Below, piece by piece: positions 7,913 through 18,436 of a DNA stretch of 64,000 nucleotides. A program made the position numbers and the translations under genes. The notes below the pieces were generated by a model. The model was not told the DNA's origin, searched no databases, and saw only the letters and a list, made by a program, of their open reading frames with translations. Each line of letters opens with the position of its first letter. Positions within the stretch are counted from its first letter, which is position 1. The stretch comes from Halobacterium noricense (GTDB lineage: Archaea > Halobacteriota > Halobacteria > Halobacteriales > Halobacteriaceae), in the NCBI RefSeq assembly GCF_021233435.1, contig NZ_CP089468.1, forward strand, positions 1,612,001 to 1,676,000, in the 5' to 3' direction.

Positions 7913-8326
7913 TCAGTCCTCGCGGCGCGCTTCCTGGACGGCCTCGGCGATTTCGTCGGGATGGTCGGCGGCCACCCGGAGCACGGCGTCGTGGAGTTCG
8001 CGCTTCTCCTCGTTGCGGACGCCTGCCTCGCGCAACGTGCGCACGACGTCCAAGTCGAGGGTGTCTTCGAGGGCCGTCCACGCCTCCGACCGTGCGTACA
8101 TCGGTGCCTGCTTGACGTCGCCGTACTCGAACGCCGGCCCCTCGCTAGTCGTGGCCTCGGACGTTGCGTCCTGCTCCGTGTCCGAGTCAGTCACGGTGTC
8201 GGTCGCGGAGTCCGCCGTCTGGTCGGCGTCCGTCTCGGACACTTCTAGGTCGTCTCCGCGCTCGCTCACCGGTTCGTCGTGACCGGTCCGGTCCTGTTCG
8301 GCGGCTTCGAGGTCGTCGAAGCCCAT
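7913..8326 (-). CDS. ParA-linked small acidic protein, candidate partition partner
   Basis: A 137-residue protein whose first 65 residues are low-complexity (Asp, Glu, Thr, Ser). The last 70 residues form a compact, mostly helical, basic/acidic segment beginning APMYARSEAWTALEDTL and ending AVQEARRED. Its start overlaps the stop of parA by one base (TGATG), so the two are translated together. ParA-type ATPases normally work with a DNA-binding partner, and the next gene in the operon is the natural candidate. No ParB, ribbon-helix-helix or winged-helix signature is obvious, so DNA binding is inference. A conserved function downstream of ParA in haloarchaea is plausible. Confidence 0.65.
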   Translation of the reverse strand: MGFDDLEAAEQDRTGHDEPVSERGDDLEVSETDADQTADSATDTVTDSDTEQDATSEATTSEGPAFEYGDVKQAPMYARSEAWTALEDTLDLDVVRTLREAGVRNEEKRELHDAVLRVAADHPDEIAEAVQEARRED

Positions 8327-9201
8327 CAGCGGGTCACCTCCCCACGCTCGACGATGGCCGCGAGTTCGTCGTACGCTCCGAGTTGGTCGCATTCGGGGTC
8401 GTAGTCGCGCAGCGGCACGCCCTCCTGGTGGGCGTCGTCGATGGCCGCACGATACCGGATGCCCGGGAGGTCGCCGTTGTAGTCGCCGGCGTCGATGGCT
8501 GCCCAGTCCCCCTCGGAGAGATACGCGAAGTTCGGGACGAGGTGGTCGATGGCGTCTCGGGTCGTAATCTCGCGGAGGAGTTTGCGGTCCCGGGTGGACT
8601 GGTCGATGCGCTTGCGGAGGTCGGAGGGAACGACCGCGAGGATGTTCAACTCGAAGTACTCGCGGGCTTCCTGGACGAGCCGGTCGAGCGTGTTTGTCAG
8701 CCCGGTCTCGTAGCCGTTCTCCGGCCGCAGCGGGATGATGAGGTTGCCGGTGGCGTACATCGCGTTGTCGTTGAGCTTCCCGCGGTTGGCGGGACAATCG
8801 ATGACGACGTAGTCGTACTCCTCGCCGAGCAGCGGGTCGACGAGGTCTCGTTTCAGCCGCGTCGTCCCCATCGTCGCCTCCTTGAGTGCGGACTGCACGC
8901 TCTCCAAGTCCTCGTGTGCGGGGAAGAGGTCCAGGCCCTCCGCGACGTTGACGACGTACTCGCGGGGGTCCTCGCCTTCGAGTAGGACGGCCTCGGCGTG
9001 GTTGCTGCCGTCGTCGTCGGTGCTGTTGTACCTGTCCTCGAATCCGAGGTTGAGCGTCATGTGTCCGTTGTCGTCGAGGTCGACGACGAGCGCGCGCTCG
9101 TTGCGGTGCGCGAGTTCGCGTGCGAGGTTGAGCGCGGTGGTCGTTTTCGCGAATCCACCCTTCAGGATGCCGACACTGACAGCGCGTGGTTCCGTTTGCA
9201 T
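8326..9201 (-). CDS. parA: ParA/Soj/MinD-family partition ATPase
   Basis: A 291-residue deviant-Walker ATPase. The Walker A' motif is GILKGGFAKTTTALN, with the signature lysine before the glycines. VVDLDDNGHMTLNLGF follows as the A'-loop partner strand, and DYVVIDCPANRG as Walker B. Such ATPases form gradients on DNA that position replicons or protein clusters. The ATG at 9201 is preceded by AATAA as a TATA-like element. The AATAGGCACCTATT near-palindrome lies 17-30 bases upstream, a position suited to autoregulation. The gene is at the left border of the AT-rich island, so it may serve an integrated replicon rather than the main chromosome. Confidence 0.9.
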   Translation of the reverse strand: MQTEPRAVSVGILKGGFAKTTTALNLARELAHRNERALVVDLDDNGHMTLNLGFEDRYNSTDDDGSNHAEAVLLEGEDPREYVVNVAEGLDLFPAHEDLESVQSALKEATMGTTRLKRDLVDPLLGEEYDYVVIDCPANRGKLNDNAMYATGNLIIPLRPENGYETGLTNTLDRLVQEAREYFELNILAVVPSDLRKRIDQSTRDRKLLREITTRDAIDHLVPNFAYLSEGDWAAIDAGDYNGDLPGIRYRAAIDDAHQEGVPLRDYDPECDQLGAYDELAAIVERGEVTR

Positions 9202-12570: not shown

Positions 12571-12822
12571 TTACTCACCTAGCGTGTGGCGTTGAATGTC
12601 GTGGTAGAAGACGGCGAGAATGGTGAGCCGACTCACGACGAACGAAATACCGTAGCACATAGTGGCGAGGGGTTCGTAACGAATTAGAAGTGTGCCGTAG
12701 GAGCCGATAACAAGTCCATTATCGGTATCAACGGTATTTCGAGAATTACGCAACATGGGCTTGAAAGTCTTGTTGATAGACTCACCGTCTGAATTAAAAT
12801 CAATCTCTGAACAAATCCTCAC
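12571..12822 (-). CDS. Doubtful hypothetical protein
   Basis: An 83-codon frame with a possible membrane segment near its end (MCYGISFVVSRLTILAVF). It has no recognisable domain, ends in HTLGE and lies upstream of and divergent from the protease gene with only about 38 bases between starts. It may be a remnant like others in this island. Confidence 0.25.
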   Translation of the reverse strand: MRICSEIDFNSDGESINKTFKPMLRNSRNTVDTDNGLVIGSYGTLLIRYEPLATMCYGISFVVSRLTILAVFYHDIQRHTLGE

Positions 12823-12860
12823 ACCTTAATGTGAAGGTACTAACACCATCAGTGATTCGT

Positions 12861-14078
12861 ATGTCTGATTCACCCAGACATGTCAGTCGGCGTCGAGTCC
12901 TGAAAGGTATCAGCGGAATCGGTCTTTCAGCGGCCACATTCGGGGCGGTTACTGGTTCCGTCACAGGCCAACAAGAATCCGGCAGCTCAAAAAAGAAGCA
13001 ATACATCGAAGAGTACAAAGTCACGTACCCGAACGGGATGAATAGCCAGCCCACGATAGAGCCAATCACGGGAACTGTCGACCGTGGTTACTGGCAAGAA
13101 ATGATGGCAGCTGAAGCAGCCGCTGCTCAAGTTCGTCAAACTCTCGCTCAGAACGGACTCGATCAACGGGCGACTGTTTCGGTCAAAACAGAAAACTCTC
13201 GTCAAGAACTCATCGATCCGACAATCTCGGTCGATTACAACGCAGCCAAGACGCTCCCCCAGACCGAAGCAATCAGCAGTAAGCAAGCTGAGATTGAATC
13301 CATCAAGAGCAACGTCCCAAAGAAAGCAGAGGGCCGTATCGAAGACGAAGGAAAGACCATCTCCCGGTCTTTCGACGTCATCGTGGATACTATCGAAAAG
13401 AAGCCAGCCACAACTCCATCTACAGCCGATATCGACTGGAAGTACGACAGTGAATATCGGCCTGTTCCAGGTGGCTGCCACATCACCACACCAAACACGA
13501 ACGGCTCACACGGGACACTCTGCCACAGTTTCTGGGAGCCAGATTCCAGTGCGCGGTTCCACATCACCGCATCGCACGTGTTAGCTGATGGCGGTACCCA
13601 AGAAAATCCAGAGTACAGTACCCGAGTCTATCAGCCCTACTCGGATGGGATTGGTTCAACAAAGCGAAGCGCTTGCGTCTACGAAGACAATTTCGAAGCT
13701 GGCTTCGTTGAACCGCAATCAGTCGATCCTGGCTACATCAACAAGATGGCCAACCAGGATGGCTCGAAGACGGACAACTACGTGTCATACTTCAAAGATT
13801 GGCAATGGCTCAGCACTGACGGTAAGACGACAGACATCACCAAGCAAGGAGCACGAACTGGCGAAACCTCCGGTTCGGTCTACGCGGCGGACAAGAGTAA
13901 CTGGACATTCTGGATGGAAGCTTCGATGAATGGTGGCGACTCTGGAGGTCCGTCCTACATCGTGGAAGACGGGAAAATCAAACTGGTCGGAATGATGCTC
14001 TGGAGTACCTCCACTCCCCAGCAAGCTGGTGGGAATGCTATCGCAGGTCTCAACGACCGTCTCGGTCTAGTTCCGTAG
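12861..14078 (+). CDS. Tat-exported trypsin-like serine protease with N-terminal pro-domain
   Basis: A 405-residue protein. Residues 9-16 (SRRRVLKG) plus a hydrophobic stretch to about 36 form a twin-arginine signal without lipobox cysteine. Residues 45-180 are a charged alpha/beta domain. Residues 195-405 are a chymotrypsin-fold protease with His239 (FHITASHVLADGG) and Ser361 (MNGGDSGGP), plus Cys206 and Cys221. Where an Asp is expected (D-[AF]-[AG]-F-[VI]-E-P) the sequence has Glu279 (NFEAGFVEP), so the triad may be unusual. The ATG at 12861 puts the Arg motif at the right distance. The next gene, 44 bases on, encodes a lipoprotein homologous to the 45-180 domain. Confidence 0.85.
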   Translation: MSDSPRHVSRRRVLKGISGIGLSAATFGAVTGSVTGQQESGSSKKKQYIEEYKVTYPNGMNSQPTIEPITGTVDRGYWQEMMAAEAAAAQVRQTLAQNGLDQRATVSVKTENSRQELIDPTISVDYNAAKTLPQTEAISSKQAEIESIKSNVPKKAEGRIEDEGKTISRSFDVIVDTIEKKPATTPSTADIDWKYDSEYRPVPGGCHITTPNTNGSHGTLCHSFWEPDSSARFHITASHVLADGGTQENPEYSTRVYQPYSDGIGSTKRSACVYEDNFEAGFVEPQSVDPGYINKMANQDGSKTDNYVSYFKDWQWLSTDGKTTDITKQGARTGETSGSVYAADKSNWTFWMEASMNGGDSGGPSYIVEDGKIKLVGMMLWSTSTPQQAGGNAIAGLNDRLGLVP

Positions 14079-14122
14079 CATAAGCCACAAAGCGTTTAAT
14101 CACACCATTATTATTAGACATT

Positions 14123-14713
14123 ATGGCCCCCGTGTATAAGTCAAAGCTTCCTCTCTGCCTGTTGGCCCTCACCATGATCACGGCAGGCTGTTTGGGGAAT
14201 CCAACGTCTCCCAGTTCAACATCGACAGAGAATCCATCGGCCACCATCTCGGAAATGCCCAACCACCTCGAGGTCAACAAAGAATTCACTACCAACCACA
14301 CGTACCACGCAAAGAACAATACTATCGAGTACATCGAGGAATACCGGGTTTCAGTTAACGAAACGACTGGGAATGTAACCAGAAAACCAGTCTACGGGAC
14401 TTCCCCCGCAGACGTTTGGCTGAAGCACATGGGTGCATCGGTTGCAGCCCAAGCAGTTCGTCAAGAACTCACTGCGAATGTATCTAATCAAACCTTAGAC
14501 GGTATCACAGTTGAATCAGTCTCTAAGCCAACCGTGCACGTCGCGGTCGTCTGGACGCGCAACAAGGTCGGTGACACCGCCCAAACGCCACGCCTCTCCC
14601 AAGAGACCCTCCGCGAAAACATCCCCAAGGATGTAACTGTCACACTTAGCGTCGATGAAAAGCAAATGACGCGAACCTACAACGTCACCGTCGAGGAACG
14701 AACCAAGATGTGA
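14123..14713 (+). CDS. Lipoprotein homologous to the pro-domain of the upstream protease
   Basis: A 196-residue protein with a signal peptide and lipobox ending at Cys23 (MITAGC), then a Ser/Thr/Pro linker to about residue 45. The remaining 150 residues parallel residues 45-180 of the upstream protease. EYIEEYRVSV matches QYIEEYKVTY; VAAQAVRQELTANV matches AAAQVRQTLAQNG; TLRENIPKDV matches IKSNVPKKAE; MTRTYNVTVEERTK matches ISRSFDVIVDTIEK. I infer duplication of the pro-domain as a membrane-anchored protein, perhaps an inhibitor, chaperone or anchor for the protease. Same strand, 44-bp gap, so probably one operon. Codon use is AT-richer than the flanks of the island. Confidence 0.8.
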   Translation: MAPVYKSKLPLCLLALTMITAGCLGNPTSPSSTSTENPSATISEMPNHLEVNKEFTTNHTYHAKNNTIEYIEEYRVSVNETTGNVTRKPVYGTSPADVWLKHMGASVAAQAVRQELTANVSNQTLDGITVESVSKPTVHVAVVWTRNKVGDTAQTPRLSQETLRENIPKDVTVTLSVDEKQMTRTYNVTVEERTKM

Positions 14714-14841: not shown

Positions 14842-15594
14842 TCAGCTACGACCATGCTGCTTAGATTGGACTATTTTCTTTCTTGTCCATTCTACAGTAT
14901 CTGGGCGTGTATTCCGAATTACCGCTGAGAGGTGATTCGTATCTGTGAAAATTAACGTATACGAGACAGCCCCATCAACCAAAATAAGTCCATACTGGGG
15001 AAGGGCATCGGAAACAACTAATTGATCTATCAGTCTGGAATCATCGGTTAGCGAATTCGCGGCACCGGTATTAAACGTCTCAGCGACCGTTTCTGTAGTT
15101 ATCAGGCTAATTTCGATCTGGCTTGCGTTACGTTGGTTACTGATTTCTTCCAGGTATGGAGATATGAGCACAGGAGTCATCACAACAATATTGTCAGCTT
15201 GCAAGAGATCATCAACTAAAGGATCGATTGTTGTGTAGGGAGCGTGGTCGGGTGTTTGAAATAACGAAGCACCTTCCAGAATCGTTCCTGGGAGCGTTGT
15301 TTCGACTGGGAGTGCTGCTAACTCCTGTTCAATTTTGGAAAGCCTGCCGAAAGATTGCTCAAACTGTTCGTATAGTTCATTCGCTAGTTGACCGGCGGAA
15401 GTGGGCTTGCAGAGCCCGTTGTCCCGGCATACGAGATGTTCTTCTTCTAGTTCGCGGATTGCTCGATCAATAGTTGGGCGTGACTTGGCTACCTCATCTT
15501 CTAAGTTCCGTTTCTCCGGCATCTCGTTACAGACCAGATGGAGGACTTCGGCACGCCTGAGGACAGTTTTGAGCATGTTATTGCCTTCAGACAT
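14842..15594 (-). CDS. HTH regulator with FilR1-type sensor domain
   Basis: A 250-residue regulator common in archaea. The N-terminal winged helix (about 10-70) contains KRNLEDEVAKSRPTIDRAIR; a helical linker follows. The C-terminal half (about 115-245) resembles the FilR1/DUF1724 sensor domain, with LLQADNIVVMTPVLIS and YGLILVDGAVSYTLIF. Such proteins are transcriptional regulators; the ligand is usually unknown. It is an isolated gene in the island, convergent with the lipoprotein across a 128-bp gap, and may regulate the protease-lipoprotein unit. Confidence 0.8.
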   Translation of the reverse strand: MSEGNNMLKTVLRRAEVLHLVCNEMPEKRNLEDEVAKSRPTIDRAIRELEEEHLVCRDNGLCKPTSAGQLANELYEQFEQSFGRLSKIEQELAALPVETTLPGTILEGASLFQTPDHAPYTTIDPLVDDLLQADNIVVMTPVLISPYLEEISNQRNASQIEISLITTETVAETFNTGAANSLTDDSRLIDQLVVSDALPQYGLILVDGAVSYTLIFTDTNHLSAVIRNTRPDTVEWTRKKIVQSKQHGRS

Positions 15595-16588: not shown

Positions 16589-18436
16589 GCTACACTGGGA
16601 CTGAACCACTCCACAATCTGGCTAGCATCACGCTACCAGTGCAGTAGCGCGGCTCGGAGGCAGGATAATGATGAGTGACCCGTCGGCGGTCGCCCAGTCA
16701 ATCGTCGTTCACGCGGAGACGCTCTGTGAGCGCGAAGACCACCTCTGGGATGTCATTCGCCAGCTCTCGATTCCAGTTAACGATCTCGAGGACGCCCGCG
16801 ACCAGAACCGCGTCAACTTCGGAACCGACGAAATGTTTCGCACGCTCCTATTCAAAGGCATTCGCGGGATCTCACAGAACGAATTAGCGCAACGACTCGG
16901 ACGAGAGCCAAGTCTTGTCAAGAGCTTCCACTTCGATATTACTGACCTCGAGAAGACGCCGACCCAACAGCAACTCTCGTACACGCACGGAAAATTCAGC
17001 GAGGACACCCAAGAAGTCCTCAACCGGACTGTGGCTGGCGTCCGGCAAGTTGCGCTCGACCATAATGTTGTCACGGAAGGCCTCGTGCCGTCCGTCCCAA
17101 CCAAAACCGATGAAGAGGAGTCACAGAGCACGAGCGAGTACAAGAAGGAGAAGGCCCAGAAGACGCTGACGCTTGCTCGCAAACACGTCATCCCCGAGTT
17201 CGACACCCACCGAGCGGCCCACAAGACGTACTCCGACGAGGTGATCTTGGATATGTTCGCGAGTATTTGTGCAAACAACGGGAGTGCTCATTCAGAAGCG
17301 GAGTACGGCTGGCTCACCGACGACGACCTCACCTGCGACGACTCAACGTTCCTGCGGGCAATCAAGAAAATCGCCACGCTCGAGGAGTCAGACGGGCAGC
17401 TCACGTTCGAGGATTTCGAGGACGATGATTCGATGCCCGAAATCGACCAGATTCGGGACGCGATTATGACGGCGTTCAACGCCGCCACGGAGAACATCAT
17501 CAACTCAATTCGCGGTGATGATCCCTTCGACTCACGGGAGACTGTTGCAGCGATAGACATCACCCACGAGCAGTTTCACGTCTGGCCGTGGGAAGACAAG
17601 GAAGCAGGTGTCGCGAAGCCGGACTATCCGAAGATGGTGAGCGGCTACAAAAAGGACGGCGAGTACAAACGCGGCTACAAGTACGCGACCATCACGCTGG
17701 TTGGCGACCACGCACCACTCATCCTTGGTATTGAGCCAGTCAAAGAAGACTCTACGTGGGAGCCCGACGGTTCGCCGTCGTACTCGAAAGCTGACCTGGT
17801 GAGTCGATTGCTCGACCGAGCGGAGCAGTTCGTCGACCTGGACATGGTGATGTTCGACCGTGGGTTCTACGCCAATCGCGTGTACGCAAATGTTGACGAG
17901 CGCGGGCTCACGTACCTGTCGCCGGTCCCTCGATACGAAGACGATTTAGCAGCGATCCAGGATGTCCAAGCGCATCCGACAGCAGACAAGGCCGTCAAAC
18001 ACGATGTCCCGCTAGGGATCGACGGCGACGTTCATCACGAGGCGGAGTTCCTCTACACGCCAAGCACGAGCGATGATGCTGACGGGAAGTACGCAGTGTT
18101 CGTGACGAACCAGGACCACGTCGAGCCGGAGGAGATTGGGAGCGTGGTGAATGGGTATAGTCGGCGGTGGGACATCGAGAACCAGTACAAGTCGATCAAG
18201 GACTTTCTGCCGAAGACATCGTCGACGGACTACCGGCTGCGCCTGTGTAACTTCGCGTTGTCGACATTGATATATAATCTGTGGCGGCTCACAGACTATC
18301 TGATCAAGGTCGCACTCGATAAACCGATTCGGTCGCCGCCAGTGATCACGGCGAAGACGTTCGTACGGGCGTTAGGTGACTTCCTACGGGAGTTCGGGTA
18401 ACGCTTTTCTCACGCCGGGTTCATCGATTCAGTAGC
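16589..18436 (+). mobile_element. Insertion sequence with intact DDE transposase
   Basis: The element contains one gene (16668-18401). Both ends carry GCTAC-N8-TGAACC as an inverted repeat: 16589-16607 on the left and 18418-18436 (as complement) on the right. The eight central bases do not match. These may be the terminal inverted repeats or part of them; I found no clear target duplication, so the exact ends are uncertain by about 10 bases. Confidence 0.6.
16668..18401 (+). CDS. DDE (IS4-like) transposase
   Basis: A 577-residue transposase. An N-terminal DNA-binding region contains the HTH-like MFRTLLFKGIRGISQNELAQ. The RNase-H-fold catalytic core has the three acids in context: Asp in VAAIDITHEQFHVW, Asp in LDMVMFDRGFYANRV, and Glu in GYSRRWDIENQYKSIKDFLP, which matches the Y-x6-E-x6-K pattern of IS4-type elements. 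The frame is intact, so the element may be active. It lies in the middle of the AT-rich island, beside relics of other elements. Confidence 0.88.
   Translation: MMSDPSAVAQSIVVHAETLCEREDHLWDVIRQLSIPVNDLEDARDQNRVNFGTDEMFRTLLFKGIRGISQNELAQRLGREPSLVKSFHFDITDLEKTPTQQQLSYTHGKFSEDTQEVLNRTVAGVRQVALDHNVVTEGLVPSVPTKTDEEESQSTSEYKKEKAQKTLTLARKHVIPEFDTHRAAHKTYSDEVILDMFASICANNGSAHSEAEYGWLTDDDLTCDDSTFLRAIKKIATLEESDGQLTFEDFEDDDSMPEIDQIRDAIMTAFNAATENIINSIRGDDPFDSRETVAAIDITHEQFHVWPWEDKEAGVAKPDYPKMVSGYKKDGEYKRGYKYATITLVGDHAPLILGIEPVKEDSTWEPDGSPSYSKADLVSRLLDRAEQFVDLDMVMFDRGFYANRVYANVDERGLTYLSPVPRYEDDLAAIQDVQAHPTADKAVKHDVPLGIDGDVHHEAEFLYTPSTSDDADGKYAVFVTNQDHVEPEEIGSVVNGYSRRWDIENQYKSIKDFLPKTSSTDYRLRLCNFALSTLIYNLWRLTDYLIKVALDKPIRSPPVITAKTFVRALGDFLREFG

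Follow-up and report, generated by a model that had tools for sequence, protein, structure and literature searches.

The stretch of DNA that was analyzed, in the following called the window, comprises 64,000 nucleotides of the genome of Halobacterium noricense. A gene for an exported serine protease and, downstream of it on the same strand, a gene for a lipoprotein were found in it, with the following features (positions within the window):

12861..14078, plus strand: P0001, exported S1 (streptogrisin-like) serine protease of 405 amino acids, ATG start, from the open reading frame and the family profile
12885..12905, plus strand: twin-arginine motif SRRRVLK in the signal peptide of the protease, read from the translation
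12993..13400, plus strand: N-terminal (pro-like) domain of the protease, residues 45-180, from homology to the lipoprotein domain
13455..14075, plus strand: S1 catalytic domain of the protease, residues 199-405, from the streptogrisin B profile match
13575..13577, plus strand: codon of the catalytic His239 (H in 59 of 59 aligned sequences)
13695..13697, plus strand: codon of Glu279, in the column of the catalytic Asp (58 of 59 sequences have D, the protein of the window alone has E)
13941..13943, plus strand: codon of the catalytic Ser361 in GDSGG (S in 59 of 59)
14079..14122, plus strand: 44-base intergenic gap; a TTTAAT stretch lies about 29 bases ahead of the ATG of the lipoprotein gene
14123..14713, plus strand: P0002, lipoprotein of 196 amino acids with a Sec-type signal and no twin arginine
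14180..14191, plus strand: lipobox TAGC (Cys23) of the lipoprotein, read from the sequence
14303..14701, plus strand: free-standing relative of the pro-like domain, lipoprotein residues 61-193, from BLASTP and profiles

An alternative GTG start, which is also open, lies 30 bases upstream of the ATG of the protease gene. A preliminary description of this locus had proposed Tat export of the protease, and the motif SRRRVLK, which is conserved in the family alignment, is consistent with it; the TAT_signal_seq match is weak (E = 0.26). P0001 alone gave no Pfam match. Among its relatives, the Pfam family Trypsin was matched by 11 of 18, and Trypsin_2 was matched as well. A profile of 18 relatives matched streptogrisin B in a search against solved structures (E = 2.4e-6), and via these relatives a chymotrypsin-fold catalytic domain, as expected of a member of the S1 family, is detectable by sequence. 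Another haloarchaeal S1 protease group aligns with the family from end to end, N-terminal region included, although the N-terminal parts of the two groups alone show merely faint similarity.

In the family profile alignment, the column of E279 corresponds to the catalytic aspartate of streptogrisin B. The other 58 aligned relatives have an aspartate at residue 279, so that the earlier remark on an odd glutamate at this position was right. The His-Asp-Ser triad is present in the family, and the protease of the window departs from it at this one residue. With E279, the activity of the enzyme may be low or changed. That it is inactive or nearly so, and acts together with the lipoprotein as a decoy or binding protein, appears very improbable: the residue is unique among 59 relatives and the branch of the N-terminal domain is long, but His, Ser and GDSGG are intact, and glutamate is the third member of the triad in some chymotrypsin-fold viral proteases. 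Elsewhere, several genes of proteases with the same N-terminal domain (L156, L163 and G082:C1:130049-131218) are split or interrupted by an in-frame stop, which suggests that such genes decay often.

P0002 combines a signal peptide with a lipobox cysteine, as is characteristic of haloarchaeal lipoproteins, and the TAGC core has been confirmed to be functional in haloarchaea (PMC2945643). The lipobox thus supports the predicted tethering to the membrane. Just upstream of both start codons, at about 12820-12833 and 14101-14113, the sequence TCACACC is followed by TTA, possibly a common regulatory motif, or chance. A gene for a FilR1/HVO_A0261-type regulator lies convergent to the lipoprotein gene (14842-15594, minus strand), and an HTH-type regulator is also encoded upstream of the protease in the loci L123 and L172.

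The stretch with the gene pair has a GC content of 46-57%, compared with 66% in its flanks, and the same region contains a DDE transposase (16668-18401) and a ParA-like ATPase (8326-9201). Because of this low GC content between regions of 66% and the presence of these two genes, the region looks acquired.

The domain shared by protease and lipoprotein

Protease and lipoprotein have a homologous domain of about 135 residues in common. The aligned blocks named in the preliminary description were all found (QYIEEYKV/EYIEEYRV, AAQVRQTL/AQAVRQEL, NVPKK/NIPKD and SRSFDVIV/TRTYNVTV). BLASTP aligned protease residues 47-176 with lipoprotein residues 69-191 at 27% identity (E = 8e-10), and the Smith-Waterman score of the pair was 121, compared with 34.0 ± 5.9 and a maximum of 63 in 2000 shuffles. 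The profile-profile comparison, which had been suggested as a check, gave a probability of 99.3 (E = 2e-20) for 18 proteases against 24 lipoproteins. Most weight is carried by the same comparison restricted to the domain and with both proteins of the window removed, which covered the whole domain with a probability of 99.5 (E = 4e-22). The homology is beyond doubt.

The domain family defined here is represented in numerous genomes of the order. It is missing from Pfam, NCBIfam and PHROGs, where the shared domain found no match. In a sample of 247 genomes of the phylum, matches were confined to the order of the window. No relative was found in the viral contigs that were scanned, and a plasmid collection contained four distant proteases and no lipoprotein of the domain family. 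A scan of named genomes yielded four loci, three of them real.

A sequence search of the PDB with the lipoprotein profile gave no match. AF2 models, which were built from six sequences, reached a pLDDT of 42 for the protease and 64 for the lipoprotein; the N-terminal domain inside the protease was modeled with a pLDDT of about 40-80 and the catalytic part without a confident fold. Both domains were predicted with the same order of elements (strand-strand-helix-strand-strand-helix-strand-strand). This agreement is not independent proof of the homology, since both alignments contain the same sequences. Foldseek and VIA-align recognized no convincing known fold in these low-to-middling models. 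The best VIA hit, an OsmC/Ohr-type fold (Z 5.8), was within the range of chance and was rejected.

The lipoprotein had been described as a copy of the protease's own N-terminal domain, and as a local duplicate this does not hold. In a tree of 45 domains, the 26 lipoproteins and 19 protease domains are separated by one branch with a support of 100/98, which makes the split an old one; the N-terminal domain of the protease of the window sits on a long branch. Forcing the two domains of the window together costs 23 log units, at an AU test p = 0.08 that is no formal rejection. Recent duplication was also rejected, as was gene conversion from one gene to the other: 16 of 32 codons of shared residues are identical where 13.8 are expected (p = 0.26). 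Codons that are no more alike than by chance speak against a recent copy and point to constraint acting on the protein.

Nevertheless, the two proteins resemble each other more than their families would suggest. After correction for the general similarity of each protein to the other class, P0001 and P0002 rank first of 494 lipoprotein-protease cross pairs, and they have 18 rare residues in common (mean 5.0, sd 2.4). Such similarity without excess codon identity is to be expected where one binding surface constrains both domains. Second by rare residues (14) is the lipoprotein of L033, whose genome lacks the protease, so that the resemblance is a property of a small lipoprotein clade and partly older than the species of the window. 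Judged from these sequence comparisons, the lipoprotein is a member of a separate old family that is here unusually matched to its neighbor.

Distribution of the gene pair

Lipoproteins with the domain adjoin the protease at four loci, namely in the window and in the genomes G130, G241 and G260 (39 proteases of the family, 342 genomes). The pair in G130 has the same order and strand as in the window with a gap of 40 bases, and its partner-specific similarity ranks 3 by score and 66 by rare residues. In G260, the convergent lipoprotein gene encodes two copies of the domain in one open frame (L160, 3249-4487), and partner-specific similarity is absent. The pair in G241 has a gap of 59 bases and a 5′-truncated protease gene (L162, 5187-5825, minus strand): signal and N-terminal domain are missing and the upstream sequence is degenerate, next to an intact lipoprotein gene. 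Independent origins of the pairing were considered and not upheld, as a single clade of the lipoproteins of the window, G130 and G241 was not rejected (p = 0.41); adding the G260 lipoprotein to this clade was nearly rejected (p = 0.055).

Most lipoproteins of the domain family stand alone beside unrelated genes. Within the genus, the protease is present in the genome of the window only (1 of 13 genomes), and the closest relatives of the lipoprotein (74% and 47% identical) belong to two congeners without the protease. Across all 342 genomes, the lipoprotein is present in 12 of 31 with the protease and in 67 of 311 without it, a weak association (p = 0.04). The survey for the gene pair that had been suggested therefore had a divided outcome: the pair recurs in other genera far above chance, but it is not generally co-inherited, as the genus has the protease in one genome while two congeners keep the lipoprotein, and most lipoproteins are alone.

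It is unlikely that the neighborhood is incidental, with two common haloarchaeal families joined in a mobile low-GC island without any functional link. The base composition, the nearby transposase and ParA-like gene and the lack of conservation within the genus fit this explanation. It is opposed by the recurrence in other genera, since the probability of four or more pairings by chance is at most 4.5e-6, allowing five lipoproteins per genome (expected number well under 1), and furthermore by the partner-specific similarity and by a general excess of lipoproteins next to the proteases. In an automatic count, 21 of 37 proteases have some lipoprotein gene within 400 nt downstream, compared with 15 of 165 background genes; the background genes were drawn from the rest of the genes at these loci. 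The p of about 1e-9 should not be read strictly, because genes and lipoboxes were called by crude criteria and because the proteases are related to one another. With three cases added by inspection and the window, 25 of 39 proteases have a downstream lipoprotein.

These partner lipoproteins form at least five groups that have no homology to the N-terminal domain or to one another, among them Ig-like proteins, a small family with the motif Y....G.V..L, PQQ-type beta-propellers and others. The four loci including the window are the only pairings with a shared domain; in the other pairings, the lipoproteins are unrelated. As this applies to most sister proteases, the shared domain is not required, and that no single partner family is needed fits interchangeable guards as well as mere surface partners.

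Small lipoproteins with a C-terminal Y....G.V..L are located beside N-domain proteases in L128, L142, L143, L148, L158, L159 and L163; the two that were tested matched no Pfam family, and they are possibly one undescribed family. PQQ-type beta-propeller-like lipoproteins are encoded immediately downstream of N-domain proteases in L152, L154 and L155. In the metagenome-assembled genome Ods02 (L123, 5974-12650), two protease-lipoprotein units lie in tandem and are followed by a row of more small lipoproteins with CEG.VY.L as their final motif (see also L006 and L126). BsuPI-type inhibitors were rejected as an identity of the partner lipoproteins, as there was one weak match below the cut-off, which genome search and profile comparison did not uphold.

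It is conceivable, though doubtful, that a general and so far undescribed system of surface protease and immunity exists in haloarchaea, in which Tat-exported S1 proteases would each be guarded by an adjacent lipoprotein from interchangeable, unrelated families. The guard in the window would then have been recruited from the pro-domain family. We give a similarly modest chance to the domain being a general haloarchaeal module for interaction or anchoring at the cell surface, which would dock the protease to the surface or to substrates; the neighboring lipoprotein would be the docking site or adaptor, and other lipoproteins would have other tasks. The wide distribution of the lipoprotein family, mostly beside unrelated genes, agrees with such a module, as do the many unrelated kinds of partners of the sister proteases, including beta-propellers and Ig-like domains. 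As in pro-enzymes, the domain follows the signal peptide and precedes the catalytic part; this location and the partner-specific similarity of the pair in the window are harder to explain in this way.

A candidate propeptide-like inhibitor

The alignment with streptogrisin B starts at its residue 3, immediately past the N-terminal domain, which places this domain where a pro-region would be. From this position, it is reasonable to regard it as a pro-domain. Like the streptogrisins and the alpha-lytic group, the protease of the window has an S1 catalytic domain after a domain of the size of a pro-region; it differs from them by Tat export, by the partner lipoprotein and by its N-terminal domain, as PF02983, the pro-region of that group, was not matched among 18 proteases at E ≤ 0.1.

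We tentatively favor, at somewhat less than an even chance, that the lipoprotein is a propeptide-like, membrane-tethered inhibitor or immunity protein for an S1 protease that has a pro-domain of its own. The N-terminal domain would keep the protease folded yet silent until Tat passage and would then presumably be trimmed off. The lipoprotein would present its homologous domain at the outside of the membrane, where it may bind the mature protease at the surface to which the N-terminal domain would also bind. The mature enzyme would thereby be blocked near its own cell, although both the inhibition and the direction of the effect are what we infer. The homology, the motifs for export and lipid anchoring, the pro-region position, the recurrent neighborhood and the partner-specific similarity support this reading. 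The intact lipoprotein gene beside the truncated protease gene in G241 fits an immunity gene, as immunity genes often stay intact beside a decayed partner. On the other side, most lipoproteins occur without a protease, as do the closest ones in the congeners, and the co-occurrence in genomes is weak; the unrelated partners of the sister proteases, and a partner-specific similarity that is weaker in G130 and absent in G260, would also speak against inhibition. Additionally, Glu279 raises the question of whether the protease of the window is active.

The pro-regions of alpha-lytic protease and the streptogrisins are foldases and also inhibitors. Together with the pro-region position of the N-terminal domain, this leaves a small chance that the lipoprotein is not primarily an inhibitor but a folding helper, i.e., a pro-domain acting in trans as foldase or stabilizer at the membrane. 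However, Tat substrates fold before export, so that a foldase outside the membrane would come late, and the protease already has its own N-terminal domain.

As to the inhibitor reading, a full-text literature search that had most subscription papers outside its reach found no archaeal system of this kind. The earlier statement that none is described stands to this extent for archaea, but the arrangement is known outside them from Spi/SpeB and SUB1-ProM. As in propeptide-like inhibitors, the lipoprotein is homologous to the N-terminal domain of its partner, and its gene is adjacent to the protease gene (four loci in 342 genomes). Spi, which is encoded next to SpeB of Streptococcus pyogenes and has been described as a propeptide analogue (PMC2873492), likewise stands alone, is related to the propeptide of its protease and has its gene directly beside the protease gene. 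However, SpeB is a cysteine protease (C10), and Spi is thought to act in the cytoplasm and is not described as a lipoprotein. In Plasmodium, the propeptide-like protein SUB1-ProM also stands alone and is a potent inhibitor, encoded adjacent to subtilase genes (PMC6993865); it differs by the subtilisin family with its propeptide fold and by its eukaryotic host, and the abstract describes no lipid anchor. In Bacteroides, exported C10 proteases with a propeptide, partly on mobile elements, are encoded next to predicted lipoprotein inhibitors that are staphostatin-like (PMC2873492; PMC3462683). These are bacterial cysteine proteases, however, and the inhibitor is unrelated to the propeptide.

Halolysins such as SptA are haloarchaeal, Tat-exported serine proteases with an N-terminal propeptide as well, but belong to the subtilisin family, and no partner lipoprotein was seen in the passages on them in PMC6085418. 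When such a Tat-exported enzyme becomes active too early, haloarchaeal cells die (PMC6085418), so that a guard would make sense. If the proposed function is true, the locus would provide a case of a membrane-bound, propeptide-like inhibitor in archaea, and one for a serine protease. It would also point to a wider set of haloarchaeal protease-lipoprotein pairs, which can be tested individually.
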